Source of the DNA: a virus
IMG/VR virus record: IMGVR_UViG_3300025914_000045
Location: 1 to 25,663 of that record
Length of the DNA stretch: 25,663 bases
Reading direction: 5' to 3' (one strand)
The position numbers and the translations under genes were made by a program. Below the pieces are notes generated by a model. The model made no database searches. It was not told the origin of the DNA and saw only the letters and a list, made by a program, of their open reading frames with translations. Shown here in pieces: positions 7,093-20,225 of the stretch. Position 1 is the first letter of the stretch, and every line of letters starts with the position of its first letter.

Positions 7093-7578
7093 TTACTTGC
7101 CCAGCGGCGGTAGCCCGCGGCGCGGCTTGCTCGCATTCGCGGCGCTCACCGCCGCAATGCGCGCTTCCAGCTTGGCGGCGACGGCCGGGCGCGTCTCCGT
7201 CTTACGCCACGCGGTCAACAGCGTGACGTTCTCTTCGCCCTCCACGACGGTAAGCGCCGTGGCTTCGTTGAGACGGTCGAGCGGATCGATTTCCAGCTCA
7301 TCGCCCTGCGCGCCTTCGCTGATCGACAGCCAGCCCTTACGCAACCACGTGTTGACTTGGCTGTTCCCCTTCACCTTGTCCCAATAGCCGCGGTCAACGG
7401 CGGTCGCCTGGGGGCGCCCATCCTTCTCACGCGGGGCACTGGGCGGGATCGGCTTGCCGTCGTTGAGGCAGACGGCAGCCATGCCCGTGGGGCCTTCCAC
7501 TCGCTTCATGGTGTCGGGCAAGTGGAAGATCCGCGGCTGATTGTTGGTGATGAAAATAATATCCTTCTGAGCATTCAT
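7093..7578 (-). CDS. Hypothetical virion protein of the head module
   Basis: The 161-residue product begins MNAQKDIIFITNNQPRIFHL and ends Pro/Gly-rich (SKPRRGLPPLGK). A short beta-rich front precedes 'WDKVKGNSQVNTWLRKGWLS' and a helical Ala/Glu-rich C-terminal half. AGGGGA lies about 8 bases before the ATG. Proteins of this look ('W....k....v..wl..g.l') often lie between the major capsid and connector genes, but I cannot name the family. A structural or head-completion role is inferred only from position. Confidence 0.65.
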   Translation of the reverse strand: MNAQKDIIFITNNQPRIFHLPDTMKRVEGPTGMAAVCLNDGKPIPPSAPREKDGRPQATAVDRGYWDKVKGNSQVNTWLRKGWLSISEGAQGDELEIDPLDRLNEATALTVVEGEENVTLLTAWRKTETRPAVAAKLEARIAAVSAANASKPRRGLPPLGK

Positions 7579-7597
7579 TTTGTTTTCCCCTATCCCC

Positions 7598-8113
7598 TTA
7601 GTAGCTCGGATACCACTTCGTAGTGGTCGGATCGAAACACATCGTGAGCACCTTGTTTTGCACCACAGTCGTCGCGAGCGCGATATTACCGGACGTCAAA
7701 GTAGCGCCCGGCGTCGCGTTATCGAAGATCATGTTGATGCAGCCCGAGCGCCCGCCGAATGGCGAGTTGATCGTGGCGATCTGCACAGTGCCCGTGACGT
7801 GGAAGGTGTTGCCGCCCGTCGGCGCGCTGATCGTCGCCGCCGACGCAACGGCCGTCGGCAACGTGGGCGGCCCAACGTCGAGCAAGCCGCCCACGTCAAG
7901 CGAACGCGTGCCCGAGTTGTAGACGGCGCCGTCGAGGAAATTGAGATACAGGATCGACGGCACCTTGCGGAAGTACCCAACGCCCGTCCCGAAGGATTTG
8001 ACGTCGAGAAGCATAACCGGGCTGGTCACTGCCGCATACGCGGCGCGCGCGCCCATGAGGCACGCGACCGCGATGAGGAGCGCAACCGCCGTATTTCGTG
8101 CGTAGCGCTTCAT
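7598..8113 (-). CDS. Exported beta-structured protein with signal peptide, in head module
   Basis: The 171-residue product has a clear Sec signal peptide: the positively charged MKRYARN, the hydrophobic core AVALLIAVACLMG and a cleavage-type 'AAYA|AVT' at about residue 27. The mature part is Thr/Gly/Asn-rich and predicted beta. It contains 'GGNTFHVTGTVQIATI', followed by a Cys pair (GCINMIF and LTMCFD) that could form a disulfide, and ends WYPSY. The 'FHVTGT..I..I' pattern is often seen near the C-termini of phage fibre and head-decoration proteins. Start ATG 8113 follows the previous stop without a gap, with GGGAG upstream. Export is odd for a gene lying next to the capsid gene; function unknown. 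Confidence 0.8.
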   Translation of the reverse strand: MKRYARNTAVALLIAVACLMGARAAYAAVTSPVMLLDVKSFGTGVGYFRKVPSILYLNFLDGAVYNSGTRSLDVGGLLDVGPPTLPTAVASAATISAPTGGNTFHVTGTVQIATINSPFGGRSGCINMIFDNATPGATLTSGNIALATTVVQNKVLTMCFDPTTTKWYPSY

Positions 8114-8416
8114 TTACTTTTCTCCCTTCTGTTCCGTCAGCGCAGGAAGCGGCGGCAGCTTGGTCACCTGCAACTGCCCTTCCGCCTCGCGCTTTTCGCC
8201 ACCGTCATCTTCGGCGGGGGCCTCGTGGATCTCGTCGGTGACGTCCACGAGTTTCCCCGCCTCCACCCACATTTCGACGGTGGGATTTTCCAGCGCCGCG
8301 AACCACCGCCCTTCGCTAACCGGAGTCACGCCCGGCAACAGCGTGACTTCCGGCATACGACGCGCGGGCGGCAAGTGAATCGCCGCCGTGTGCGCATTCT
8401 TGATCAGCTTGAACAT
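8114..8416 (-). CDS. Small hypothetical protein next to major capsid gene
   Basis: The 100-residue protein MFKLIKNAHTAAIHLPPARR has a middle part 'VTLLPGVTPVSEGRWFAALENP', typical of small head-module proteins that follow capsid genes. After it comes an acidic, Glu/Lys-rich low-complexity tail. Its ATG overlaps the TAA of the capsid gene (TAATG), so the two are likely translated together. I do not recognise a named family. It may be a small virion component or assembly factor. Confidence 0.65.
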   Translation of the reverse strand: MFKLIKNAHTAAIHLPPARRMPEVTLLPGVTPVSEGRWFAALENPTVEMWVEAGKLVDVTDEIHEAPAEDDGGEKREAEGQLQVTKLPPLPALTEQKGEK

Positions 8417-9540
8417 TACGACGAGCCATCCATGTAAACCGCCGACAGCGGGTAGTAAAACACCACGCCGCCAATGCGCGCATGGCAGGGGATTTCGTAC
8501 TGCATCCCTTCCAACTGCGGCGCGAATTGCTCAAACTCCTGGGGAATCTCGAGAGTGAGCGCATTCTCGTCGCGACGATACACGACGATGCGGCCACCCG
8601 TACCGCCCGCATTCTGATTCGTCAGCTTGGACCACTGATCGATATTCTTGCAGTACGGGTTGTTTTCCAGAAACGACCGCATCGCGGTCTTATCCACAAG
8701 CGCCGAATAGGGCGTCTGCGAGAAGATCGCGAATTCGTTGATCGGCAGAATCGCCGTGTCAGCGACTTCGACACCGTTGGACTGCGTGATCACCTTGCCG
8801 AACGCAGCGTTCATGTCGCCGATCATGTCGAGCGCGGTGGCCGTCGCCCAAGCGCCCGTGGGGGCTGCCATCACCGGGACGCTGCCATTGTTGATGATGC
8901 CGGTGAAGCCCGCTTCCGTGAGGCCCACGGCGGCGATGTCATCAATGCGCGCCTCGATCACGCGGCGCGCGGCAGCCGCACGCTTGTAATCGAGCTGGCC
9001 ACCGCCCTGCGGCGCGGCCATCGCCACGCGGCGCATGTCCTGAATCGTGTAGGTGTACTTCGCGCCCAGGCTCTTGATGTTGGTGATCACTTCGGTCTTG
9101 AACACGTCGACCGATTCGAAATCGGTCGCATAGTTCGCGATCACCTTCGCCATGCCGACGAGATCCCACGACCAGAACGACCACTGCTCCGCGCCCGGCG
9201 GGACTTCATGCGAGACGGGCAGGAAGTCGCGCGCGCGGAACATGGTGTACTTGACGTCGAAGGTGCGCGCCTTGATGTAGAGGAGCTGGCGCGTAATGAA
9301 CGCCGTCTCGCCCGCATCGAAGCGGCGCCCGTCGGCGCGACGGCCGATCTTGCCGTGGCGGATTTGATCCTCCACGAAAGCAGCCGTCTCCTGATAATCC
9401 GCATCTTCGGTATCGATGCGAAAGTTTTTGAACGAAGGAAAGCGACCGCTCGTGACGCTATCGTCACGATACGCGCGCCCACCGCCAAAGGATCCAAGAT
9501 CCTCGTAACGGTCCATCAGAATTCGTGCGAGGCGATTCAT
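8416..9540 (-). CDS. Major capsid protein (DUF2184-type)
   Basis: The 374-residue product starts at ATG 9540 with GGAGGT six bases upstream, overlapping the previous TAA. A longer reading from 9591 is not needed. Diagnostic stretches include 'DYQETAAFVEDQIRHGKI', 'AETAFITRQL'-like text, 'DVKYTMFRARDFLPVSHEVP', 'AEQWSFWSWD', 'ITNIKSLGAKYTYTIQDMRR' and 'IPCHARIGGVVFYYPLSAVY'. These fit the DUF2184 capsid family with the HK97 fold. It follows the protease/scaffold gene and a small coat-associated gene, as expected. It forms the icosahedral shell. Confidence 0.92.
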   Translation of the reverse strand: MNRLARILMDRYEDLGSFGGGRAYRDDSVTSGRFPSFKNFRIDTEDADYQETAAFVEDQIRHGKIGRRADGRRFDAGETAFITRQLLYIKARTFDVKYTMFRARDFLPVSHEVPPGAEQWSFWSWDLVGMAKVIANYATDFESVDVFKTEVITNIKSLGAKYTYTIQDMRRVAMAAPQGGGQLDYKRAAAARRVIEARIDDIAAVGLTEAGFTGIINNGSVPVMAAPTGAWATATALDMIGDMNAAFGKVITQSNGVEVADTAILPINEFAIFSQTPYSALVDKTAMRSFLENNPYCKNIDQWSKLTNQNAGGTGGRIVVYRRDENALTLEIPQEFEQFAPQLEGMQYEIPCHARIGGVVFYYPLSAVYMDGSS

Positions 9541-10103
9541 TACCACACCTCCATGAGCGCCAAGCCAGGCGCAGAGAGCGTCATCAACCAACGGCCGTGC
9601 GGGAATTTGACCTTACCCGTGCCCGCGCCGAAACCAAACTGACCCAGCGGATTGTTCGTTTGGGCAGTGGTGTACACGTAGACGTCGCCGTACTGCGTCG
9701 GCGCCTCCGCGGCGAACACCCACAGCTCACCCTTACGCAGCATCGGAACGTCCATCTTGTCCAGGTACGTTCCATAGGAGAACGTGCCTTGAGACGCAGT
9801 GCCGATGTTGTCCAACTGCCCGCGCGACGTGTCGAGGATCGGGATGCCCTCAAACACGCTGTCGATCATCGGGTCAGCCACAAGGCCCGCGGGAAGCGCC
9901 TTGATCGTGCCCGCCTGCCCGCTGCCCGGCGTTGACACGAGCGGAGCGGGAACGCTCTCACTCTGCGCGCCTGGGGCCACGAGCAAGCCAATCCCAACGG
10001 CGCCTTCCGCAACCTTCGAAAAGATGCGGGTGCCGTCGGTCCATCGAACCATACCCGCCAATGCGGCGGGCGGGTTATTCGCGTAGCTAGTCTGCTGTCC
10101 CAT
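9540..10103 (-). CDS. Head decoration / cement-like protein
   Basis: The 187-residue product starts MGQQTSYANNPPAALAGM with GGAGG 8 bases upstream. It is Gly/Ala/Pro-rich and beta-like, with 'VGIGLLVAPGAQSESVP', 'GIPILDTSRGQLDN', 'KGELWVFAAEAPTQYGDVYVY' and 'GQFGFGAGTGKVKFPHGRW'. The pattern resembles 'structural cement protein' (Gp24-like) annotations found just before DUF2184 capsid genes in related phages. It probably coats or stabilises the capsid. The assignment is by pattern and position. Confidence 0.7.
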   Translation of the reverse strand: MGQQTSYANNPPAALAGMVRWTDGTRIFSKVAEGAVGIGLLVAPGAQSESVPAPLVSTPGSGQAGTIKALPAGLVADPMIDSVFEGIPILDTSRGQLDNIGTASQGTFSYGTYLDKMDVPMLRKGELWVFAAEAPTQYGDVYVYTTAQTNNPLGQFGFGAGTGKVKFPHGRWLMTLSAPGLALMEVW

Positions 10104-10121
10104 CGTTTTTCCCTCCGCGCC

Positions 10122-10808
10122 TTAGCGCATCGTTTCCAACATCGAACCCTGCACGGCCGGATAGCCGTCGATTTCCCGATTCGGATTGCTCTTGCTCATC
10201 GCGAGCGGGCGACGGTGGCGCTCCTCTTCGGAGGCATCGCGGCGCGAGCGATAGTGATCCATCGTCGGTTGCTTGCCGTCGTCGCGCGTGAAGCCCTCGG
10301 GCGGCTTGCGGAGGTGGGCCGGAACACGGCCACCCTGCACGCGGTTGTTTTCGTCGAGGCGCAGCCCCTGGCCATCCTTGCGCGTGGCGGTGTCGGGCTG
10401 CGCGGGGATCGCGCGAAACAACCCGTCGAGATAATCCTTCGACTTGCCGTCAAGCTTGATCTCCGTGTGATGCGCCTTGATCGCCAACAGCTTGATCGCG
10501 GGCACGCTGAGGCCATCCAGCTTCGTGTCCTTCGGTAGCACAACGCGCGCCCGGCGGATCACCGCGTCGCGAACCTGCACGGCGCGATCGAGGCGCTGCG
10601 GCGAATTGGCGACGGCCAGTTGCTTCTTGAGCTTCTCGGTTTCCACCGTTGCAGCGTCGGCACGTGCCTTAGCCTGATCGCGTTCCTTGATGAGCTGCGC
10701 GCGAGTGGCGGCGGCATCCTTGCGCGCCTTGTCTCGACGGGTAACCGCCGCCTTGTGGGCGTCGGTGCCCACTTCGTACTTGGTACCGCCGATCACTTCG
10801 ATTTCCAT
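10122..10808 (-). CDS. Nested scaffold protein from internal in-frame start
   Basis: Inside the protease gene, ATG 10808 is preceded by AGAGGAG (spacing about 6-7), a better ribosome site than that of the parent gene. The 228-residue product begins MEIEVIGGTKYEVGTDAHK and then forms a coiled coil. This start lies exactly at the border of the two domains. It resembles the lambda C/Nu3 pair, in which the scaffold is translated from an internal start. Expression is inferred. Confidence 0.65.
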   Translation of the reverse strand: MEIEVIGGTKYEVGTDAHKAAVTRRDKARKDAAATRAQLIKERDQAKARADAATVETEKLKKQLAVANSPQRLDRAVQVRDAVIRRARVVLPKDTKLDGLSVPAIKLLAIKAHHTEIKLDGKSKDYLDGLFRAIPAQPDTATRKDGQGLRLDENNRVQGGRVPAHLRKPPEGFTRDDGKQPTMDHYRSRRDASEEERHRRPLAMSKSNPNREIDGYPAVQGSMLETMR

Positions 10809-11378
10809 GTTTCGCTCCTCTTTGTCCCGTCGTTGGTTACCCTTCGAATCGAGTCGCAAACGGACTTCCGGCCCGGCCCGACCATCCGGGACAAGCGCCA
10901 CGTGGTTGTAACGAATATTGCGTTGAATGCGATCGTAGCGCTCGCCGTCGGGCGCAACGCCCGCCGTCTCATCCACGTCGCAGTTGTAGCCGCAGCTCAA
11001 TTCACGCGTGCCGTTGCGAATCGCGTCCACCGCTTCCTGTGCCTGCCAAACGGTACGCGCGGCAATCTTGTCGCCATCCTGCTTCACCGTGCCGCTCTCC
11101 ACGTGCCCCATGTTGTGCTTGCGATGCATCTTGGGGGTCATGGGATCGGTAGGGTGAAGGTGCGTGAGCGGCGCGTTGGGAAGCGTCGCGAGGCTATCCG
11201 CGTTGAAAACCTCTTCGGGCGGGCGATACTCGCGGATGACAGTGCCGTCATCCTGCACGTAATCGAAAACACCCGTACGCGTCAGAAAAGCGGGGATGCT
11301 GAATCCACCTTGCGGCGTGATGGTAACTTCCCCGAGTGAGCCAACATCGAAGCGGGTACGCCCTTTGATAACGCCCAT
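10122..11378 (-). CDS. Prohead protease fused to scaffold (DUF2213-type)
   Basis: This 418-residue protein has an N-terminal DUF2213-like domain (residues 1 to about 180). Typical pieces are 'EVTITPQGGFSIPAFLTRTGVFDYV', 'EEVFNADSLATLPNAPLTHLHP', 'ELSCGYNCDVDET' and 'RNIRYNHVALVPDGRAGPEVRL'. It is the head maturation protease of these phages. From about residue 191 on, the protein changes to a long charged coiled coil ('KARADAATVETEKLKKQLA'), followed by a Arg/Asp-rich tail, as in scaffold proteins. An internal start at 10808 would release the scaffold alone. The gene lies just upstream of the decoration and capsid genes. The start has little Shine-Dalgarno signal. Confidence 0.85.
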   Translation of the reverse strand: MGVIKGRTRFDVGSLGEVTITPQGGFSIPAFLTRTGVFDYVQDDGTVIREYRPPEEVFNADSLATLPNAPLTHLHPTDPMTPKMHRKHNMGHVESGTVKQDGDKIAARTVWQAQEAVDAIRNGTRELSCGYNCDVDETAGVAPDGERYDRIQRNIRYNHVALVPDGRAGPEVRLRLDSKGNQRRDKEERNMEIEVIGGTKYEVGTDAHKAAVTRRDKARKDAAATRAQLIKERDQAKARADAATVETEKLKKQLAVANSPQRLDRAVQVRDAVIRRARVVLPKDTKLDGLSVPAIKLLAIKAHHTEIKLDGKSKDYLDGLFRAIPAQPDTATRKDGQGLRLDENNRVQGGRVPAHLRKPPEGFTRDDGKQPTMDHYRSRRDASEEERHRRPLAMSKSNPNREIDGYPAVQGSMLETMR

Positions 11379-11461: not shown

Positions 11462-12337
11462 TTATTCGCTGTCGTCTTCTCCTGCGCCGAAGGCAGATTC
11501 TATGGCAGGGACGGCGATGCAACGGCAATTGTAATCGTCGCCCGGGTGATCGTCTTCCCCGTTGCTGGACTTGTCCGCCTTCAGTGGGGGATCATCCCAT
11601 TCATAAATTTCGTCGGGATCGTCCAATTCAGCGTGCTCGGGGCGCACGCTACCGTCGCGGCGGGACAGCCAATGATACCCCGTAACGCCGGCTTGTTTCT
11701 GCGTCGCCTGATTCATATCAGCGAACGTGTTACCGAAGAGTAACCGAACGCTCGTTTGCAATTGGCTCTCTGCGCCGTCGAGTGCCCCGTCGAGTAGCGT
11801 GCTGAGCGCCTCGCGCGTGCGATCCTCTTCGGCCACCGATTCCCATTCGGCAAACGCTTGGCTGACGCGCTTTGTGGCCTCCACTGGGTAATCCTCGAGA
11901 ATCGACACCAACCCGTCAACGAAGCCGTACGTTTGTTCGCTCAGGTCCACTTCTAGGTCGCGCGCCTGCACGCCCAAGCTTTCCGCGACCTGCGCGTGGA
12001 CGTTCTTCGCCATGTCGTGCGCGAGCGGTGTCACCGTTGAGCGCAACTCTTTGCGAGCCACCGTGCGCGCACGCGGGGCGTCTGTGCGCGCATTGCGATG
12101 GAGCCATGCGACTTTCAGGTGCGGGTTGTGCGCGCGCGCGACCGCAGCGACGATGAGCCGCAGCCTCGCTTCGATGCCTACCGGATGCTTGGGTGCGCGG
12201 CGCCGCAGCTCTGCGCGCTTGGTTGCTTTACTCTTACGAGGCGCGCGTTTTCTGATGCGTTCGCCAACTTTGGCAATGCGCGCATGAGCATGTGCGGCGA
12301 ATGAATTGAACGGCGCCGTCTGACGTGGTTTTTCCAT
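11462..12337 (-). CDS. Minor head protein, MuF / SPP1 gp7-like
   Basis: The 291-residue product starts at ATG 12337 (AGGATAAGG upstream). The N-terminal half is very basic and helical, with 'HRNARTDAPRARTVARKELR'. The C-terminus carries the MuF signature 'YHWLSRRDGSVRPEHAELDD' (about 222-240) and ends 'GDDYNCRCIAVP' (about 267-277), the conserved Cys pair of this domain. Such proteins are minor capsid components that act near the portal and may be injected with DNA. It follows the portal by two genes, consistent with this role. No toxin domain is fused; the protein ends shortly after the domain. Confidence 0.85.
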   Translation of the reverse strand: MEKPRQTAPFNSFAAHAHARIAKVGERIRKRAPRKSKATKRAELRRRAPKHPVGIEARLRLIVAAVARAHNPHLKVAWLHRNARTDAPRARTVARKELRSTVTPLAHDMAKNVHAQVAESLGVQARDLEVDLSEQTYGFVDGLVSILEDYPVEATKRVSQAFAEWESVAEEDRTREALSTLLDGALDGAESQLQTSVRLLFGNTFADMNQATQKQAGVTGYHWLSRRDGSVRPEHAELDDPDEIYEWDDPPLKADKSSNGEDDHPGDDYNCRCIAVPAIESAFGAGEDDSE

Positions 12338-12400: not shown

Positions 12401-13111
12401 TCATGCGTAGTGGTATCCAAATTCAGCGCGCACCGACGCAGACGCGGTGTTGCCCGGCGTAGCATAGAGCTGCACGCGCGCCGGACCCTGCACGACAGCG
12501 ATGGGCGTACCCGGCCCGAGCGAACGCGTGCCCGCGAGCCCCTGCGCGGCAAGGGTGGACGTCAACGCCTTGTCTGCCACGTTCGCCAGCGGATACGCCG
12601 TCGATCGCAGGTTGAATTGCGTCTGCACCGTGGCCACTTCCAAGCTGTCAACCTGCACGTCATCCACGAAGAGGCGGCGCCCGCTAGGCACGTACGCGTG
12701 CCCGATATATGAGCGTCGATCACCAGCGGCGAGTGCAACGATTGCCGTGCCCGTGCCGTCGGCGGAGGGGTAGAGGCTGATCGCGCCCGCTGCCACGGCG
12801 CCACTGCCCGCGGTGAGCGCCTCGATTTTGTCGATCAGGCGGATGGCGTTCGCGGCATCGATTTGCACCGCAGTCGTGCCATTGAGCGTTGCAGTGTACG
12901 TGAACGGGCCTGCGATGCTGCCATCCGCGGCCAACGTGTAGTACGTCACCTTGACGGTGCGCACGCCCGTGCCCGCAGCGGCATCGTTGGCCGATGCGCT
13001 CTTGACGCTGAGCGGGGAGGCCACCGACGGCTCATTGTAGGTGGCGGCATTGACGGGCACCTCAGTGCCCGCGGTGAAGGCGGCTGCATTGTATCCAAAC
13101 GCGCGCGGCAT
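12401..13111 (-). CDS. Hypothetical beta-rich virion protein
   Basis: The 236-residue product starts MPRAFGYNAAAFTAGTEVP, with AAGGA 9 bases upstream. It is very Ala/Thr/Val-rich with few charged residues, for example 'VKVTYYTLAADGSIAGPFTY', 'GSGAVAAGAISLYPSADGTG', 'RRLFVDDVQVDSLEVATVQ' and 'PGTPIAVVQGPARVQLYATP'. Compositions like this are usual for capsid decoration or neck-associated proteins. It sits between the MuF and portal genes. I do not recognise a named family. Confidence 0.7.
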   Translation of the reverse strand: MPRAFGYNAAAFTAGTEVPVNAATYNEPSVASPLSVKSASANDAAAGTGVRTVKVTYYTLAADGSIAGPFTYTATLNGTTAVQIDAANAIRLIDKIEALTAGSGAVAAGAISLYPSADGTGTAIVALAAGDRRSYIGHAYVPSGRRLFVDDVQVDSLEVATVQTQFNLRSTAYPLANVADKALTSTLAAQGLAGTRSLGPGTPIAVVQGPARVQLYATPGNTASASVRAEFGYHYA

Positions 13112-13116
13112 GCTTT

Positions 13117-13449
13117 TTATCCTTTCGCAGAGGTTGGGTTAGCGCGGCGTTCACGTGCCGCTTTCTTTTCGTACTTGGCTGCGATCTTTTCGTGTCCCTC
13201 AGCTAGCGCTGTATTCCCTCGGCTGCGTTCAATATTAGCGATGGCTTGATGATATTCGGCGTGGTGCGCGTTGGTGTTGCCTTTGAGCGACACCATTTGC
13301 ACGTTGCCGCTACTCGCTGCGCCTTCGCTTCCACTGCTGCCACCATTGCCCTCACCGAATTTGCCGTCTTTGTCGCGCGGATGATCGCTTTCGTTCCAAT
13401 CATCCATGCGCTCCGATTCATCAAGCAGCGTTTCGTCATCGTCAATCAT
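13117..13449 (-). CDS. Small acidic/basic protein with HPRDKDGKF motif
   Basis: A 110-residue product is read from ATG 13449, which overlaps the portal stop (TGATG) with GGAG upstream. The N-terminus is acidic (MIDDDETLLDESERMDDW), followed by 'NESDHPRDKDGKFGEGNGG'. This is a motif that commonly occurs in phage proteins near portal and MuF genes, often fused to a larger domain. A Ser/Gly linker leads to a helical basic tail 'IANIERSRGNTALAEGHEKIAAKY'. Here the motif occurs in a stand-alone small protein. Function is unknown; a virion or DNA-associated role is plausible. Confidence 0.65.
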   Translation of the reverse strand: MIDDDETLLDESERMDDWNESDHPRDKDGKFGEGNGGSSGSEGAASSGNVQMVSLKGNTNAHHAEYHQAIANIERSRGNTALAEGHEKIAAKYEKKAARERRANPTSAKG

Positions 13450-15074
13450 CACGTCTCCGTCACGCGCGGCGGCACAGGTTCGGCCGAATTCTGCGCCGTC
13501 TGCTGTTCAGCAGCGATACCCGGCGTAGGCGCAGGATCCTCGGCTGCGGCTTGCGCGTTGCCGGCTTCTGTCTCCATCGTCTGGAGACTCGTGGCCATGA
13601 TGCGTTTGCGGCTGTCGCTGTCGATCTTCGTCTCGAGGCTGTACTTGCCGCCGCCAAAGCGCGACAGCGCGGCCTCTTCGGGCGTCACCATGCCACTGGT
13701 GATGTTTTGCGTATCCGCCTGCGCCTGCGCCAAGTGCATCTGCGCCTCCTCCGTGGCGGTGAGCTGCCACAGCGGCGGGAAAACGATCGACCAGTCCTCG
13801 GGGTTATCGAAACCCTGTGCGACCGCTTCAATGTACAGGTAAGTCTCGATCTGCGGGCGGATGCCTTGCGTTTGCGTCGCTTTGATCGTGTCATACCACC
13901 AACGGATGTTGCCGTCGGCAGCGTTGCCAGCGTTCAAGCCACCGGGCGACTCACCGAAGAGGATTTGCTTAGGCATGCGCGCGGCGCCCGCAACGCGTGT
14001 GTACGTCTGATCGAGCATGTCAGGGATGCCATCGAACGGAGTTGCCACGCGCTCGAATTCCTCCGCATCGCCGCTTTGATCGCCTGCGTCGAGGAGGATC
14101 GCGCGGAACGTGCTACGGATCATGTCCATGAATTGGAAGCGACTCAGCATCGTTTCTTGATCCGAGTCGATCATCTGAATCAGACCGCGGATCTTGAAAA
14201 CCGCTTGCGAAGCATCGCTGAGGAGCGTGGCGGCTGACTGCCAATTGTCGTTGAACAATTGCAACGCGCGGTAGCATTTCTGCAACACGCTGTAGTCGGT
14301 GCCCTGATTGGCCAGGCGCAGGCGCTTTGACGTCAACTCCCCGCCAAAGCGAATCATACGCGACTCATGAATCAGTAGCACTTGGCTCGTGTTGAAAATG
14401 TCGTACGGCGCGCCCACGTAGACGGCAACGGGTTGGCACAGGTAAATCGCCACGTCGCCGAATTTCGGCGCGAGCATATCCGCGTACCAACGCCACGGAG
14501 TCAAGTCGCGCTTGTCAAAGACGGTGAGCGTTTCAACGTTCTTCACGTTGTCGCGGTCGAGCGGCTCCCATGGGTCGCGCCCGTCATCCACTACCATGAA
14601 GATGCTGCCCAAGCCGTAGAGGCGACCCCACGTCATGGCTTCGCGCGCCTTTTGCGCGAGCCCGTTTTCGTCGACGCGCTTCTGTAGAATGTTGGCTTGC
14701 TCTTGCACCGTGCCACTCTGCTTTTTCATCGCAGCTTGGGCGACGGTGCGGAGATCATCCGCCTTCGGATTGGGGTTCTTTTTCAGGAAGTCGTTAACCT
14801 CCGCTTGCGCGGATTTTGAGATCACCATGAAGCCTTCACGGAAAGCTTCGTCGGGGACAGCAGAGACGATGCGCGCGGCAACGTCGTCGCTGTGGTACAT
14901 GGCTTCAAGCTCAAGCGGAGAGATAATCGGGTCCAAGACGGGGCGCGTATACGTCGTCTTGTCGCGGCCCCCCGCGAGCCCCGTCATTGCATTCATCCAA
15001 CCGTCAACGCGCGTGCGGAATTTGGCCATCGCATCGGCGCCACCAATCGCTAACTTTTTCGCCCACGAGGCCAT
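13449..15074 (-). CDS. Portal protein (DUF1073-type)
   Basis: The 541-residue product starts at ATG 15074 with GGAGG six bases upstream, overlapping the terminase stop. Recognisable stretches are 'SPLELEAMYHSDDVAARIVSAVPDEAF' (about 55-80), 'RLYGLGSIFMVVDDGRDPWEPL', 'VYVGAPYDIFNTSQVLLIHESRMIRF' and 'RMPKQILFGESPGGLNAGNAADGNIRWWYD' (shown in the middle to C-terminal part). This is the pattern of the DUF1073 portal family, also annotated as the 'Acb1 family' portal-like group. It forms the ring through which DNA is packaged. The C-terminus is Gln/Ala-rich. It lies right after the large terminase. Confidence 0.92.
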   Translation of the reverse strand: MASWAKKLAIGGADAMAKFRTRVDGWMNAMTGLAGGRDKTTYTRPVLDPIISPLELEAMYHSDDVAARIVSAVPDEAFREGFMVISKSAQAEVNDFLKKNPNPKADDLRTVAQAAMKKQSGTVQEQANILQKRVDENGLAQKAREAMTWGRLYGLGSIFMVVDDGRDPWEPLDRDNVKNVETLTVFDKRDLTPWRWYADMLAPKFGDVAIYLCQPVAVYVGAPYDIFNTSQVLLIHESRMIRFGGELTSKRLRLANQGTDYSVLQKCYRALQLFNDNWQSAATLLSDASQAVFKIRGLIQMIDSDQETMLSRFQFMDMIRSTFRAILLDAGDQSGDAEEFERVATPFDGIPDMLDQTYTRVAGAARMPKQILFGESPGGLNAGNAADGNIRWWYDTIKATQTQGIRPQIETYLYIEAVAQGFDNPEDWSIVFPPLWQLTATEEAQMHLAQAQADTQNITSGMVTPEEAALSRFGGGKYSLETKIDSDSRKRIMATSLQTMETEAGNAQAAAEDPAPTPGIAAEQQTAQNSAEPVPPRVTET

Positions 15075-16675: not shown

Positions 16676-16842
16676 ATAGGCGGCGCAAGCGGCCCGTTCG
16701 GAAACGGTGGATCTCCGACGTACGGCGCGGGCAAATGCACAGGTGAGCCCAACAGTGTCGGTAACAGCATCAGTAACGTGGTGCTATCCGCTTCCAACTC
16801 GATCACGGTGCCGTCGGGCCGCGTGAGCTTGCACTTACACAT
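16657..16842 (-). CDS. Small hypothetical protein upstream of terminase
   Basis: The 61-residue product begins MCKCKLTRPDGTVIELEADS with a helical middle 'TLLMLLPTLLGS' and a Pro-rich end. The ATG overlaps the previous TAA (TAATG), with AGAGGA upstream, and the end overlaps the terminase start by 19 bases. The overlaps and Shine-Dalgarno site favour a real gene. The front could form two short beta strands. No family recognised. Confidence 0.55.
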   Translation of the reverse strand: MCKCKLTRPDGTVIELEADSTTLLMLLPTLLGSPVHLPAPYVGDPPFPNGPLAPPIWYRSP

Positions 16843-17387
16843 TAGTCCTCTTCCGCCTCTTCGTCGTCGCTCTCATCAAAGGCCTCGTGCTCCTCTTCGG
16901 TGAGCATGGACTCCTCAAGCGTGTCAGGGTCGTTACTGGCGGCGCCCGGAAGCGTGCCCGGATGCGAGCGCACAGCGTCGTCGCTCGGGGGCGCTTGCGC
17001 CGTGGGATAGTTAGCGCCGTCCGCCTCCGATTCGTCGAGTAACATTTCGTCGCTGTCTTCCTTGCCAAAATTCATTTCCGCCCCTCCGTCATCGTGTTCA
17101 CCGATGGGCAACCGCTCTTCAGTTGCCAGCTCATAATCATCGCCTTCGCCGTTGCCCGCCTTCGCGCCTGCCGACACATACGGCGTGCCGTCGTTGTTAC
17201 CGCTGCGGCTGAACAGCTCACACGCGGCATCCAACACGTCTTTGTTCATTGCGTCATGCGGGGTGTAGCCTTCGGATTGCATCCAATTCGCGAGCGCGAA
17301 TGGATTCGAGATTTCGCTGTGGCCCTTCATGGCCTCAACGGTGCCTTCCCAACCGGCTGGTGCGGAGTCAATTCGCTGATCGGCCAT
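16842..17387 (-). CDS. Acidic hypothetical protein
   Basis: The 181-residue product starts MADQRIDSAPAGWEGTVEA with GGAG 8 bases before the ATG. It is strongly acidic. The first third, 'NPFALANWMQSEGYTPHDAMNK', looks folded and resembles short phage helical domains. The rest is Asp/Glu-rich low complexity, with 'DEMLLDESEADG' and a final run of acidic residues. The 'LLDESE' phrase also occurs in the small protein at 13117-13449. It is the first gene downstream of a motif-bearing promoter at 17417-17435, so it may begin the packaging operon. Function is unknown; DNA mimicry or assembly are only ideas. Confidence 0.65.
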   Translation of the reverse strand: MADQRIDSAPAGWEGTVEAMKGHSEISNPFALANWMQSEGYTPHDAMNKDVLDAACELFSRSGNNDGTPYVSAGAKAGNGEGDDYELATEERLPIGEHDDGGAEMNFGKEDSDEMLLDESEADGANYPTAQAPPSDDAVRSHPGTLPGAASNDPDTLEESMLTEEEHEAFDESDDEEAEED

Positions 17388-17416
17388 TATGCGCTCCTAC
17401 CCACTAGCGCAGCATA

Positions 17417-17435
17417 ACCGATCGTAATTGTCAAG
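17417..17435 (-). promoter_or_regulatory. Promoter -35 TTGACA with ACCGATCG operator
   Basis: On the minus strand a perfect TTGACA (17429-17434) overlaps the TGA stop of the upstream gene. Twelve bases on lies the plus-strand motif ACCGATCGTAATT (17417-17429). It is upstream of the gene starting at 17387. The expected -10 is weak, so activation may be needed, or start elsewhere. Confidence 0.5.
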
Positions 17436-17736
17436 AATTGGGCGTAGAGCGCGGATGAAACCCCACGAAAGTGGGGATCGAGTTGTGCCGATTCTCGAGA
17501 AACATGCGGAACATTTCAAGCATGGTGGGATCGAGCAACTCAGGAACGGGATTCATGGGATCGCTCATGATGGCCGCAGCGATGAGCAACAGCGAACAAA
17601 CCACCACACCCTGCTTTTTTCCTTTGAACGTGGCTTCGAGCGGCGTTTCCAGCTCCTGAATCAACGCCTCCATTTGCCCCTTGATCGACTGATAAATCGC
17701 AACCGCTTTCTTTCGCTCCACGCTTTCATCGCTCAT
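17431..17736 (-). CDS. Hypothetical helical protein with one membrane-like segment
   Basis: The 101-residue product MSDESVERKKAVAIYQSIKG has an amphipathic helix front followed by 'GVVVCSLLLIAAAIMSDP' at about 43-60, hydrophobic enough to be a membrane segment. The C-terminal part 'MLEMFRMFLENRHNSIPTF' is helical. The ATG overlaps the previous TGA. Its stop TGA is part of the TTGACA of the next promoter. A holin-like role is conceivable for a small protein with one hydrophobic segment, but nothing else supports it. Confidence 0.6.
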   Translation of the reverse strand: MSDESVERKKAVAIYQSIKGQMEALIQELETPLEATFKGKKQGVVVCSLLLIAAAIMSDPMNPVPELLDPTMLEMFRMFLENRHNSIPTFVGFHPRSTPNS

Positions 17737-18182
17737 CGCTTGGCCCCTTTGTTGATTTGTTTCCGCAAGCGGAAATAGCCTCGATCGAACGCTTCCCCGA
17801 TTTGATCCTGTGTCGGTTTCTTTTTCTTCCCCACCTTGATGCGCTCGCGCGTGTCGGCCACGAGTCCCTGATACATCGTGCGGATTGCACAGATGACGTA
17901 TCCGGGGCCGCCGCCCACAGGCACGATGTCAGCTTGCGGCCATGGCGGAGGGGGCCGCAGCGCACCGTCAGCGCTCACCGCTTTGAGCACGTCAAGAATA
18001 CCCGCACGGCGGCAGATTTCGGTTGCCGCTGAGCGCAGCCGTTGATAGCTCGGGTCGTTGGAATTGCGCGCGCCGTCGAGCGCCTTCCCAAGCTCAGCAA
18101 TGGCGAAGTGATCCACCACTGCCATCAACTCAGGGTCTTTTTCATAATCGTCGTCAGTGGGCACGATTTCAGCAACCTCCAT
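17733..18182 (-). CDS. Hypothetical protein
   Basis: A product of about 149 residues is read from ATG 18182 (MEVAEIVPTDDDYEKD). GTG 18164 is an alternative start, with GGAGG 11 bases upstream of it. The frame is open further to 18401, but that would cover the lipoprotein gene. The N-terminal part is helical ('MAVVDHFAIAELGKALDGAR', 'RSAATEICRRAGILDVLKAV'), then Pro-rich 'RPPPPWPQADIVPVGGG'. It ends in a basic stretch 'VGKKKKPTQDQIGEAFDRGYFRLRKQ'. It overlaps the lipoprotein gene before it by 14 bases, suggesting coupled translation. No family recognised. Confidence 0.6.
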   Translation of the reverse strand: MEVAEIVPTDDDYEKDPELMAVVDHFAIAELGKALDGARNSNDPSYQRLRSAATEICRRAGILDVLKAVSADGALRPPPPWPQADIVPVGGGPGYVICAIRTMYQGLVADTRERIKVGKKKKPTQDQIGEAFDRGYFRLRKQINKGAKR

Positions 18183-18441
18183 CGGTGAAATAACACGCGG
18201 GCACGCAATTGTGATCCACGTGGCCGGGGCCGAACGCGAGACAGTACCAACCCGCCGGGCACACGAAATTGACACCGCAGAGCTGCCCGCAGTGGCCATC
18301 GTCGGCGCACGCTTCACCGCTTGGGCAGCCACCGCCATCGTTGCACAGCGAAGGCGGACGCACGGCAGTGGGCGCCACATGCAACGGCTGAGGCACGCCA
18401 CAGGCGGCGAGGAGCAAGGCGAGGATCGCGATCGTCTTCAT
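18169..18441 (-). CDS. Small Cys-rich lipoprotein
   Basis: The 90-residue product has a lipoprotein signal: MKTIAILALLLAAC with lipobox LAAC (Cys about residue 14). The mature part is Pro-rich at first, then has many Cys residues: 'CNDGGGCPSGEACADDGHCG', 'CGVNFVCPAGWYC', 'NCVPACYFTDGGC'. The spacing suggests a small disulfide-bonded domain of the type common in lipoproteins of Myxococcota. The ATG overlaps the previous stop (ATGA), with GGGAG upstream. It would be anchored in the outer or inner membrane of the host. A role in superinfection exclusion or host surface change is possible but unproven. Confidence 0.8.
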   Translation of the reverse strand: MKTIAILALLLAACGVPQPLHVAPTAVRPPSLCNDGGGCPSGEACADDGHCGQLCGVNFVCPAGWYCLAFGPGHVDHNCVPACYFTDGGC

Positions 18442-18827
18442 GGGGTCTCTCCCTTTGTTTTCTCGTCAAGCGCGGTGAGGGCAGAGCACAGTGTGTTGTA
18501 GCGCTGGACGTCGCTGCTCTTGTCTCCTGGCGCTACGGTCAGCTTGTCTCGAAACTCCGAGGCCGCTTTCGCCACCGCCTCCAGCAGCGGCACGCGCTCG
18601 GCGATGGCGCGGCCGGCGTAGCCATTGAGTGCGCCGATAGCTGCACGCATCCGATCCGTAAATTCGTCGACAAACATCGTCCCGAATTTGCCATCCACCA
18701 TGCGCTGTAGCACCGCGCGCATCGCCGCCGCCTCGGCCTGCGTGCGGGCCAATTCCGATTCCAATTGTTCGATTCTCTCGATATGTTCAGAAAGAACTGC
18801 CGCAGCGTCGGTCATATCGATCTTCAT
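18438..18827 (-). CDS. Helical coiled-coil protein
   Basis: The 129-residue product MKIDMTDAAAVLSEHIERIEQ has GGAGG seven bases upstream. A coiled coil runs from about 12 to 45 ('IERIEQLESELARTQAEAAA'), followed by 'MVDGKFGTMFVDEFTDRMRAAI' and a second helical part ending 'TALDEKTKGETP'. Many phages carry such small helical proteins near the early genes. It lies between the lipoprotein gene and the larger coiled-coil gene. No family recognised. Confidence 0.6.
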   Translation of the reverse strand: MKIDMTDAAAVLSEHIERIEQLESELARTQAEAAAMRAVLQRMVDGKFGTMFVDEFTDRMRAAIGALNGYAGRAIAERVPLLEAVAKAASEFRDKLTVAPGDKSSDVQRYNTLCSALTALDEKTKGETP

Positions 18828-18842
18828 CGTTTGCCCTCCTCA

Positions 18843-19790
18843 TCACCCGCCCCCGCTCCGCGCGTCGACCTTGGCGATCGCCACGCACAAGCGGCGCAAC
18901 ACCTTGCCCTCGCCCGGCCACGTCGGGCCTCCGAGTGAAAACACGTCGCGGACGTCCTTCGCAGCCGCTTCCAGCTCCTCGCGCTCCTCCTGCTGCGCCC
19001 GCCACGCGTCGCGCCGTCGACACGGGTCGCACCACTGGTCGCGCGTTAGCGTCGAGTTGGTGCCGTCGCACGGGTAGTCGAATCCGTTCGTGCACTCCTC
19101 GACGGCGGCTGATTCGGGGTCGGCGATGATGGCATCCATACGCCCCTTCGCGCACGCTTCTATGTGCCCGCCTTCTTCGCTGCAGGCAGAAGTGCAGCAC
19201 ACGTCACCGTCGGCGAGCGCCCGGCGAATCTCCGCGACCGCGCGGCCGAGGAGGGCCTCTTGTTCGGCTATGACTTGGTCGGCACCGTAGCGCATTCCCT
19301 GCCAGTAATCGCGGTCATGCGCTACTTCGGCTAACTTCTCCTCCGCCACCTCCACCCGCTTCCCCAGTCGCGCGTTCTCCTCGCGCAGTTGGTGCAGCTG
19401 TTCAATATGGCTGACGAGCAACGTTGTGCTGCGGTCCATGTTACGGACTCCTTGCAACGTTACCTCCGCCGTCTCCGCCCGCTTGACCGCGGCTGCTAAC
19501 TCGGCATCTTCCAACGCCAGCTTGTGCGCTGCATTGCCAGCAATCTTGCGCGCCTCATCCAGCTCCGCCCGCGCCTGCCCCAATTCGGCCAGCGCGGCAT
19601 CACGTTCTTCGCGCGCGTTCAAACGGCCATTAACTACGGCGTCCCGTTCCGCGCGCGCTGCGGTCAAATCCTCTTGCAACTTTTCGATTTGCTTCCCCGC
19701 GGCCAACAACTCCGCTTGCGCCTTGCGCGCGCAGTCTTTCCAAAAGCGATTGTCTGCTACGATTTCCTTGAATGCTGTGATGATCCCCAT
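18843..19790 (-). CDS. Long coiled-coil protein with Cys clusters
   Basis: The 315-residue product starts at ATG 19790 with GGAGG six bases upstream and is led by the promoter at 19810-19840. Residues about 20-185 form long coiled coils, rich in Ala, Glu and Arg. After that come Cys clusters 'VCCTSACSEEGGHIEAC' (about 197-213) and 'ECTNGFDYPCDG' with 'WCDPCRRR' (about 230-258), which could bind zinc. A helical tail follows. The Cys groups are uncommon in a phage coiled-coil protein. It does not match a family I can name. Its own promoter suggests early or regulated expression. Confidence 0.65.
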   Translation of the reverse strand: MGIITAFKEIVADNRFWKDCARKAQAELLAAGKQIEKLQEDLTAARAERDAVVNGRLNAREERDAALAELGQARAELDEARKIAGNAAHKLALEDAELAAAVKRAETAEVTLQGVRNMDRSTTLLVSHIEQLHQLREENARLGKRVEVAEEKLAEVAHDRDYWQGMRYGADQVIAEQEALLGRAVAEIRRALADGDVCCTSACSEEGGHIEACAKGRMDAIIADPESAAVEECTNGFDYPCDGTNSTLTRDQWCDPCRRRDAWRAQQEEREELEAAAKDVRDVFSLGGPTWPGEGKVLRRLCVAIAKVDARSGGG

Positions 19791-19809: not shown

Positions 19810-19840
19810 AAACTAGCACGCCCCGATCGATTTCGTCAAG
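19810..19840 (-). promoter_or_regulatory. Promoter with embedded GATCG operator
   Basis: On the minus strand -35 TTGACG (19834-19839) overlaps the stop of the lipoprotein gene. An 18-base spacer leads to -10 TAGTTT (19810-19815). The spacer holds the motif CCCGATCGATTTCGTCAAG (19822-19840 including the -35). It drives the gene starting at 19790. Confidence 0.65.
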
Positions 19841-20225
19841 GCGAGTACGTACACGAGGTAGCGGCCCCACAGGTCGTGCAAGTCGTCTTGAATGGCTTGC
19901 CGTCGCTGTCGGTGCCCTCCGCCACCATCACTTTGCAGCACACAGCGTTAACGCATGCGCCGTGGTAGCTCTCTTGAATCAGCGCGAACGTGTCAGGCAA
20001 TGCGCAGCAATCGGACGTCGCCGCGCACGTCTCACCCAATGCGCTGCACATGGCAGGCGCGCACCCGGTGAACACGCCGTCTCTGTCATACTGCGGAGTA
20101 CCCCCACTACCGTCAATGAGGCACGTGGGCACGCAATCGCCTGCGTTGGCTCGCGTCTCACCGGACGGGCAAGAGGCGCCTCCACAGCCCGCGAGGGTCA
20201 ATGCAAATAAGATGACAGCACGCAT
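19836..20225 (-). CDS. Second Cys-rich lipoprotein
   Basis: The 129-residue product has MRAVILFALTLAGC, with lipobox LAGC at the Cys of residue 14. The mature part contains about 16 Cys, with 'SCPSGETRANAGDCVPTC', 'CAPAMCSALGETCAATSDCC' and 'CTTCGAATSC'. The 'CPSGE' phrase is shared with the lipoprotein at 18169-18441. GGAGG lies 8 bases before the ATG, inside the end of the upstream gene. The pattern suggests a disulfide-rich periplasmic or surface protein. Function is unknown; a role in changing the infected cell surface is only an idea. Confidence 0.8.
   Translation of the reverse strand: MRAVILFALTLAGCGGASCPSGETRANAGDCVPTCLIDGSGGTPQYDRDGVFTGCAPAMCSALGETCAATSDCCALPDTFALIQESYHGACVNAVCCKVMVAEGTDSDGKPFKTTCTTCGAATSCTYSP

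Follow-up and report, generated by a model that had tools for sequence, protein, structure and literature searches.

The gene at 7598–8113 on the minus strand of the window, the 25,663-nucleotide viral sequence analysed here, is predicted to encode a head-module surface protein of the spike or decoration type that would be exported by the host Sec system and cut by signal peptidase after AYA. Taken as a whole, an exported, disulfide-bonded spike or decoration protein that joins virions at lysis is the best explanation of the data, and we hold it tentatively, belief and doubt being nearly in balance. Export and disulfide bonding are strongly indicated by the sequence and very probable, and the assignment to the spike or decoration type is moderately supported. 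The arrival on the virion at lysis is a bold inference, put forward with slightly more doubt than belief.

The gene, its leader and its surroundings

The window phage is a Pam3/E217-like contractile-tailed phage, E217 being taken from passages of its description (PMC10329688). The features discussed below are the following.

7598–8113, minus strand: gene of the predicted exported spike- or decoration-like protein, 171 aa; the L001 relative is 87% identical and in the same place
8122–8126, minus strand: GGGAG ribosome binding site of this gene, 8 bases ahead of the ATG
8033–8113, minus strand: predicted signal peptide, residues 1–27, with an AYA↓A site (own scoring rule; conserved in L001)
7850–8032, minus strand: residues 28–88, low-confidence region (block pLDDT 46–64; dN/dS 0.095)
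7601–7849, minus strand: predicted C-terminal beta domain (FHVTGT ... NIALA ... KWYPSY), residues 89–171 (block pLDDT 80–96; profile)
7739–7741, minus strand: Cys125 codon, first cysteine of the putative cross-strand pair, register (-6,-2)
7637–7639, minus strand: Cys159 codon, second cysteine of the putative pair, register (-6,-2)
8114–8416, minus strand: 100-aa gene directly ahead of the target; no Pfam or PHROG match
8416–9591, minus strand: major capsid protein (PF09950, phrog_264; Pfam, PHROG)
9540–10103, minus strand: structural cement protein of the E217 gp24/Pam3 gp6 type (PF22758; Pfam, PHROG)
7093–7578, minus strand: next gene downstream of the target; weak PHROG matches only, counterparts in L006–L008 by eye

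Downstream of the major capsid gene the target comes second; it belongs to the late head module and is encoded close to the coat gene. A portal gene and a DUF2213 maturation protease gene were also recognized in this neighbourhood (Pfam, PHROG); downstream come genes for a virion protein (phrog_302, with DUF4054 below cut-off) and for the tail sheath. The sequence-only reading had placed the gene between capsid genes: its neighbours are indeed head genes and it does follow the capsid gene, but the 100-aa gene intervenes and the target does not stand directly between two known capsid genes.

The reading frame, strand and coordinates first assigned to the gene are correct. The ATG lies at 8113, and the stop codon of the preceding gene (8114–8116) abuts it. 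The dN/dS between the target and L001 is 0.19 overall, with 0.245 in the leader and 0.243 in the C-terminal domain; because of the overall and leader values, the protein and its leader are, as judged from codon changes, under purifying selection. Since this ratio is low, the plus-strand open reading frame 7580–8437, which covers the gene, was read as its shadow. The target is absent from the list of the automatic gene caller, which probably took this longer plus-strand frame instead.

The leader and cleavage site read MKRYARNTAVALLIAVACLMGARAAYA↓AVTS, with cleavage predicted after residue 27 (own rule score 12.36). It shows a basic n-region, an uncharged hydrophobic core and an AxA site, as expected for Sec and signal peptidase I, and 24 of its 27 residues are identical in L001. 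The score was equalled or exceeded in 33 of 5000 shuffles of the target's own first 35 residues and by 4 of 718 same-strand neighbouring proteins. By this simple rule the signal peptide does not score poorly, and the classical signal peptide with an AYA site that had been noticed in the sequence is supported. The protein contains two cysteines, 125 and 159, plus Cys18 within the leader. A relaxed lipoprotein pattern fits Cys18 in both the target and L001; the strict lipobox [LVI][ASTVI][GAS]C does not fit the target leader.

L001, part of a 49-kb contig, was the only full-length relative returned by direct search, and it has the same leader and cysteines; the search otherwise gave only a fragment (L002), from a contig shared with L052. 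The closest capsid relative, L001/L004 (95% capsid identity), carries the target gene. In L005–L008 (75–87% capsid identity) a different protein of 127–128 aa follows the capsid gene, so the target gene is dispensable, as would be expected of a moron. This slot protein does not match the profile of the target's C-terminal domain in L005–L008, and in L005 (6812–7195) and L006 (7153–7539) it is leaderless.

No Pfam or PHROG family was found for the target protein, fibre families of both collections included, and no significant PDB sequence (a single row at E 0.18 was set aside). Together with three relatives, it had no match among 50,697 phage records. The cement proteins E217 gp24 and Pam3 gp6 are likewise a head-module surface protein type and come from the same kind of phage. 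However, the window already has a cement gene of this family (9540–10103), whereas the target has a leader, no Pfam family and no match to PF22758. No comparable case was found in open-access literature on phage leader peptides, E217, Pa223, GP4 and VP1, seen mostly as titles, nor in passages on E217 (PMC10329688), phiCbK (PMC3556154) and rumen phages (PMC5723332).

The C-terminal domain and its family

The AlphaFold model of the mature target has a mean pLDDT of 74.5 and seven strands. In blocks of ten residues, pLDDT is 80–96 from mature residue 61 onward and 46–64 before. The beta-rich domain with a FHVTGT pattern and a cysteine pair described from the sequence is therefore borne out by the seven predicted strands, FHVTGT lying at residues 104–109 and the cysteines at 125 and 159. 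Foldseek gave no match to this model at E 0.001 or better (best E 1.2e-3). The highest VIA Z values were 7.5 for 6o38, 7.0 for the Solidus tailspike, 5.4 for CBA120 TSP4, 5.1 for the Pa223 capsid spike, 4.9 for StcE and 4.6 for a T4 baseplate chain, all within the range that the tool calls "possibly common". Residues 195–290 of chain C of the Pa223 capsid spike (9ny6) resemble the C-terminal domain at a Foldseek probability of 0.84 and E 0.019, a weak match with 15% identity; the likeness to the N-terminal modules of the CBA120 TSP4 tailspike and to T4 baseplate chain 5iv5_AC (Z 4.6–5.4) is also weak. The comparison with phage fibre and decoration folds that the sequence-only reading had called for thus returned virion chains, the Pa223 capsid spike among them, but the matches are weak and the best one, 6o38, is a bacterial chaperone-substrate complex. 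It presumably contains the secreted protease CpaA.

IMG/VR was searched with three patterns built on two motifs, and genome contigs with one of these patterns. The resulting C-domain profile finds at least 204 open reading frames in at least 203 loci, counting the window's own copies and overlapping or near-identical stretches. The proteins that end in the domain differ widely: some are long and fibre- or spike-like, some are short, and one type has two domains and about 220–280 aa. Such proteins, those in the head slot included, occur with and without leaders. In L053, a tail fiber match (phrog_33904) covers the protein's own C-terminal family domain.

The two-domain protein sits directly or almost directly after the coat gene, and scaffold and portal genes precede the coat gene where the contig extends that far. 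The three representatives tested matched the P22 coat family PF11651, and one representative each matched scaffold phrog_8865, P22 portal PF16510 and head-closure Hc3 phrog_578. No match to the two-domain profile was seen for PBR31 orf023, for the L006 slot protein or for the two post-coat genes of L299. The target lacks the N-terminal domain of these P22-like forms. For the two-domain protein of L151, AlphaFold gave a pLDDT of 94.5 and a pTM of 0.87; its N-terminal domain resembles a VP1 phage capsid chain (Z 10.8), GP4 portal-tail complex chain 1 (10.6), the Chi tail tip and a phage tail tube (10.3 each) and the JBD30 baseplate (8.8). At the sequence level, the profile of the two-domain family also finds the minor tail protein of Chi (E 1e-6), and the leaderless L036 protein matches a tail fiber family (phrog_33320, E 2.9e-4). 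F1/V1 ATPase beta-barrels, which appeared from rank 10 on with Z of at most 8.1 for the L151 N-terminal domain, were discounted, this type of barrel being common. The gene on the opposite strand directly after the leaderless L069 member (11592–12032, minus strand) presumably encodes an HNH endonuclease, and the L069 cluster with this gene recurs at L148.

Leaders and cysteines beside the P22-type coat gene

Because automatic start picking misassigned members, the two-domain proteins were curated by hand into 39 leader and 12 leaderless forms. The sequences were visible during this choice, which was thus not blind. Exact duplicates were removed and some near-copies stay (e.g. L079/L131 and L029/L226); members cut at the 5' end with no visible leader and fibre-type proteins (e.g. 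L039, L070, L129, L145 and L171) were left out. An upstream coat protein of at least 200 aa was found in 36 of the 51 loci (26 leader, 10 leaderless). Four loci of the family lie in named genomes. L291 alone among them is a leader form; its contig, 4.8 kb long, belongs to a Nevskia soli record and says little about the host.

All 39 leader forms have a [AVSGLTI]x[AGS]↓Q cleavage site. In an alignment of which 8 leader and 10 leaderless rows were compared, their mature N-terminus falls on the initiator Met of the leaderless forms. An in-frame stop lies within 8 codons upstream of the start in 10 of the 12 leaderless forms; the exceptions are L069, with 29 upstream codons that include no start codon, and L154, with 64 that contain two GTG.

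The number of mature cysteines is even in 39 of 39 leader forms (two in 9, four in 25, six in 3 and eight in 2); for L168 and L291 it is odd under our own rule, which cuts inside the leader, and even with the AxA↓Q site. Eleven of the 12 leaderless forms have no cysteine at all, and L076 has two, at other places. For the C-domain and linker counts, the leaderless L063 and L154 were excluded because they are truncated at the 3' end. Two linker columns are cysteine in 37 and 39 of the 39 leader forms versus none of 10 leaderless ones, and a stricter linker-pair pattern occurs in 33 of 39 versus 0 of 12. At least two C-domain cysteines are found in 29 of 39 leader forms and in none of the 10 full-length leaderless ones (p 2e-5, a value limited by the relatedness of family members to one another); the other 10 leader forms do not have two.

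Cysteine positions were anchored on two conserved acidic residues in 35 proteins (L237 was not anchorable). The register is (-4,-4) in 19 and (-6,-2) in 7, the window protein and L001 being among the latter. The two registers add up to the same value, which is what residues opposite each other on neighbouring antiparallel strands would give. The remaining 9 proteins show other patterns, six of them with two cysteines up to the first strand, and L173 and L270 among the 9 look wrongly anchored. Either register is present in 21 of the 39 curated leader forms. The window protein shows the same coupling of leader and cysteines on an unrelated head type and is one further case.

The automatically called set consisted of 118 non-redundant members whose 5' end is present: 36 with a leader, including the window copy L003 and L001, and 82 without. 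At least two C-domain cysteines were present in 26 of 36 versus 8 of 82 (p 2e-11), on calls that contain errors: two leader calls stem from internal starts (L147, L148), as does that of L036, which is leaderless on reading, and at least eight of the "no leader" calls carry leaders on reading. L131, L133, L136, L143, L159, L189 and L266 are such misassigned members with C-domain cysteines, and L134 is one without. The leader rule picked out none of 59 coat, 49 scaffold and 37 portal proteins, and 28 of 718 neighbours at the picked start, some of which are fibre-like or family members; a looser rule, of the kind used for the automatic set, picked out 70 of 1217 genes. By automatic leader calls, cysteines per 1000 residues at leader and leaderless loci were 8.4 and 8.8 for coat, 5.7 and 6.5 for portal, 8.8 and 7.7 for the tail cluster, and 2.5 and 1.0 for scaffold proteins; the scaffold difference, which runs the same way as the target's, concerns few residues. 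Leader states cluster on a tree of 36 coat proteins, with about three changes; a sign test of the coupling would need more than these three independent contrasts.

Possible destination of the predicted exported protein

The heads of tailed phages are built in the cytoplasm, a reducing compartment. Because assembly takes place there, export of a head-module product had been called puzzling. Assuming that the host has a periplasm, the C-terminal domain would, once outside the cytoplasm, have two of its strands stapled by a Cys125–Cys159 disulfide. Since the capsid is assembled inside, the exported form would have to meet it at lysis, once the compartments are mixed. A P22-like coat-adjacent counterpart exists with and without a leader, which suggests that the target most likely ends on the virion; as the same two-domain protein occurs in both leader states, its job is probably unchanged. 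By description, the target can be likened to the phi29 head fibre gp8.5 and phage L Dec, dispensable head surface proteins with genes near the coat gene. Neither is known to be made with a leader.

The main rival view is that the protein is an exported moron acting at the host envelope, by superinfection block, receptor masking or glycan binding, its place among the capsid genes giving it only late and strong expression. This idea, already raised from the sequence, is a serious possibility, albeit a doubtful one. The leader and cysteine pattern would suit it, as would the varying content of the slot between relatives, the further cysteine-bearing leader genes in the same phage kinds, and the fold matches to the bacterial complex 6o38 and to StcE. 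However, leaderless two-domain forms hold the same coat-adjacent place in P22-like phages, where a surface moron without a leader would not be expected to work, and the C-terminal domain also terminates fibre- or spike-like proteins. The other earlier suggestion, a fibre-like domain captured by a signal peptide, holds insofar as a leader does precede a fibre-type beta domain; a chance capture is unsupported because leader and cysteine pairs recur in many phages.

It is improbable that the hydrophobic stretch, kept as an anchor, or lipidation of Cys18 ties the protein, or the assembling head, to the membrane: the relaxed lipoprotein pattern in the window and L001 would allow it, but the strict lipobox is unmatched, the AYA↓A site comes after Cys18, and an AxA↓Q-type site is found in every curated leader form of the P22 type. 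Still less probable is a virion protein that stays in the cytoplasm, its hydrophobic N-terminus being misleading, or translation from an internal start at Met34. Codon 34 is indeed ATG and the N-terminal half is modelled at low confidence; this reading is opposed by the Shine-Dalgarno sequence and abutting stop and start at the first ATG, by the purifying selection on the leader and by the cysteine coupling throughout the family.

Leaders also occur on other proteins of these phages. L294, which covers the L001 phage's fibre locus, encodes a 314-aa protein with a Sec-like leader (18271–19212, minus strand; DUF4082; tail fiber phrog_38058, E 2.5e-4) and a 519-aa protein (16712–18268, minus strand) whose leader ends in LIGC, a lipobox by eye; both genes stand after baseplate and fibre genes. 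Next to its family member, L076 encodes a large leader protein with many cysteines (9378–11006, plus strand; 543 aa within the available stretch) that matches the virion structural families phrog_23837 (E 5.7e-18) and phrog_4636, the latter of tail spikes (E 4e-11). Six other leader proteins compared alongside it had no fibre or structural match. Because of the L294 and L076 cases, leaders on virion-like proteins are not limited to the slot studied here, and such predicted leaders favour a virion role of the target.

More broadly, some environmental phages may send spike or fibre proteins through Sec, form their disulfides outside and coat cytoplasm-assembled particles at lysis, a generalization that we regard as possible yet questionable. 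If true, it would mean a two-compartment virion assembly line in unrelated tailed phages. The leaderless, nearly cysteine-free forms and the leader forms with even cysteines, in one gene slot, amount to a natural experiment and make it testable whether a surface is finished after export or a capsid operon arms the host surface. A leader with even cysteines is a sequence mark to look for elsewhere.

Several further leader proteins were noticed. L129 (2016–5186, plus strand) encodes one of 1057 aa with many cysteines that matches nothing, and L070 (from 6438, plus strand) one of 2004 aa, also with many cysteines. In L297, a 381-aa leader protein with six mature cysteines (13065–14207, minus strand) is encoded near a P22-like portal gene and weakly matches head-closure phrog_8040. 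Two small proteins of the window itself (18169–18441 and 19836–20225, both minus strand) are rich in cysteine, match nothing in Pfam or PHROG and have leaders that by eye resemble those of lipoproteins. A leader protein resembling the former by eye is encoded in L296 (2212–2544), and the latter has a 70%-identical counterpart (residues 56–129) in the L001 phage (L293).
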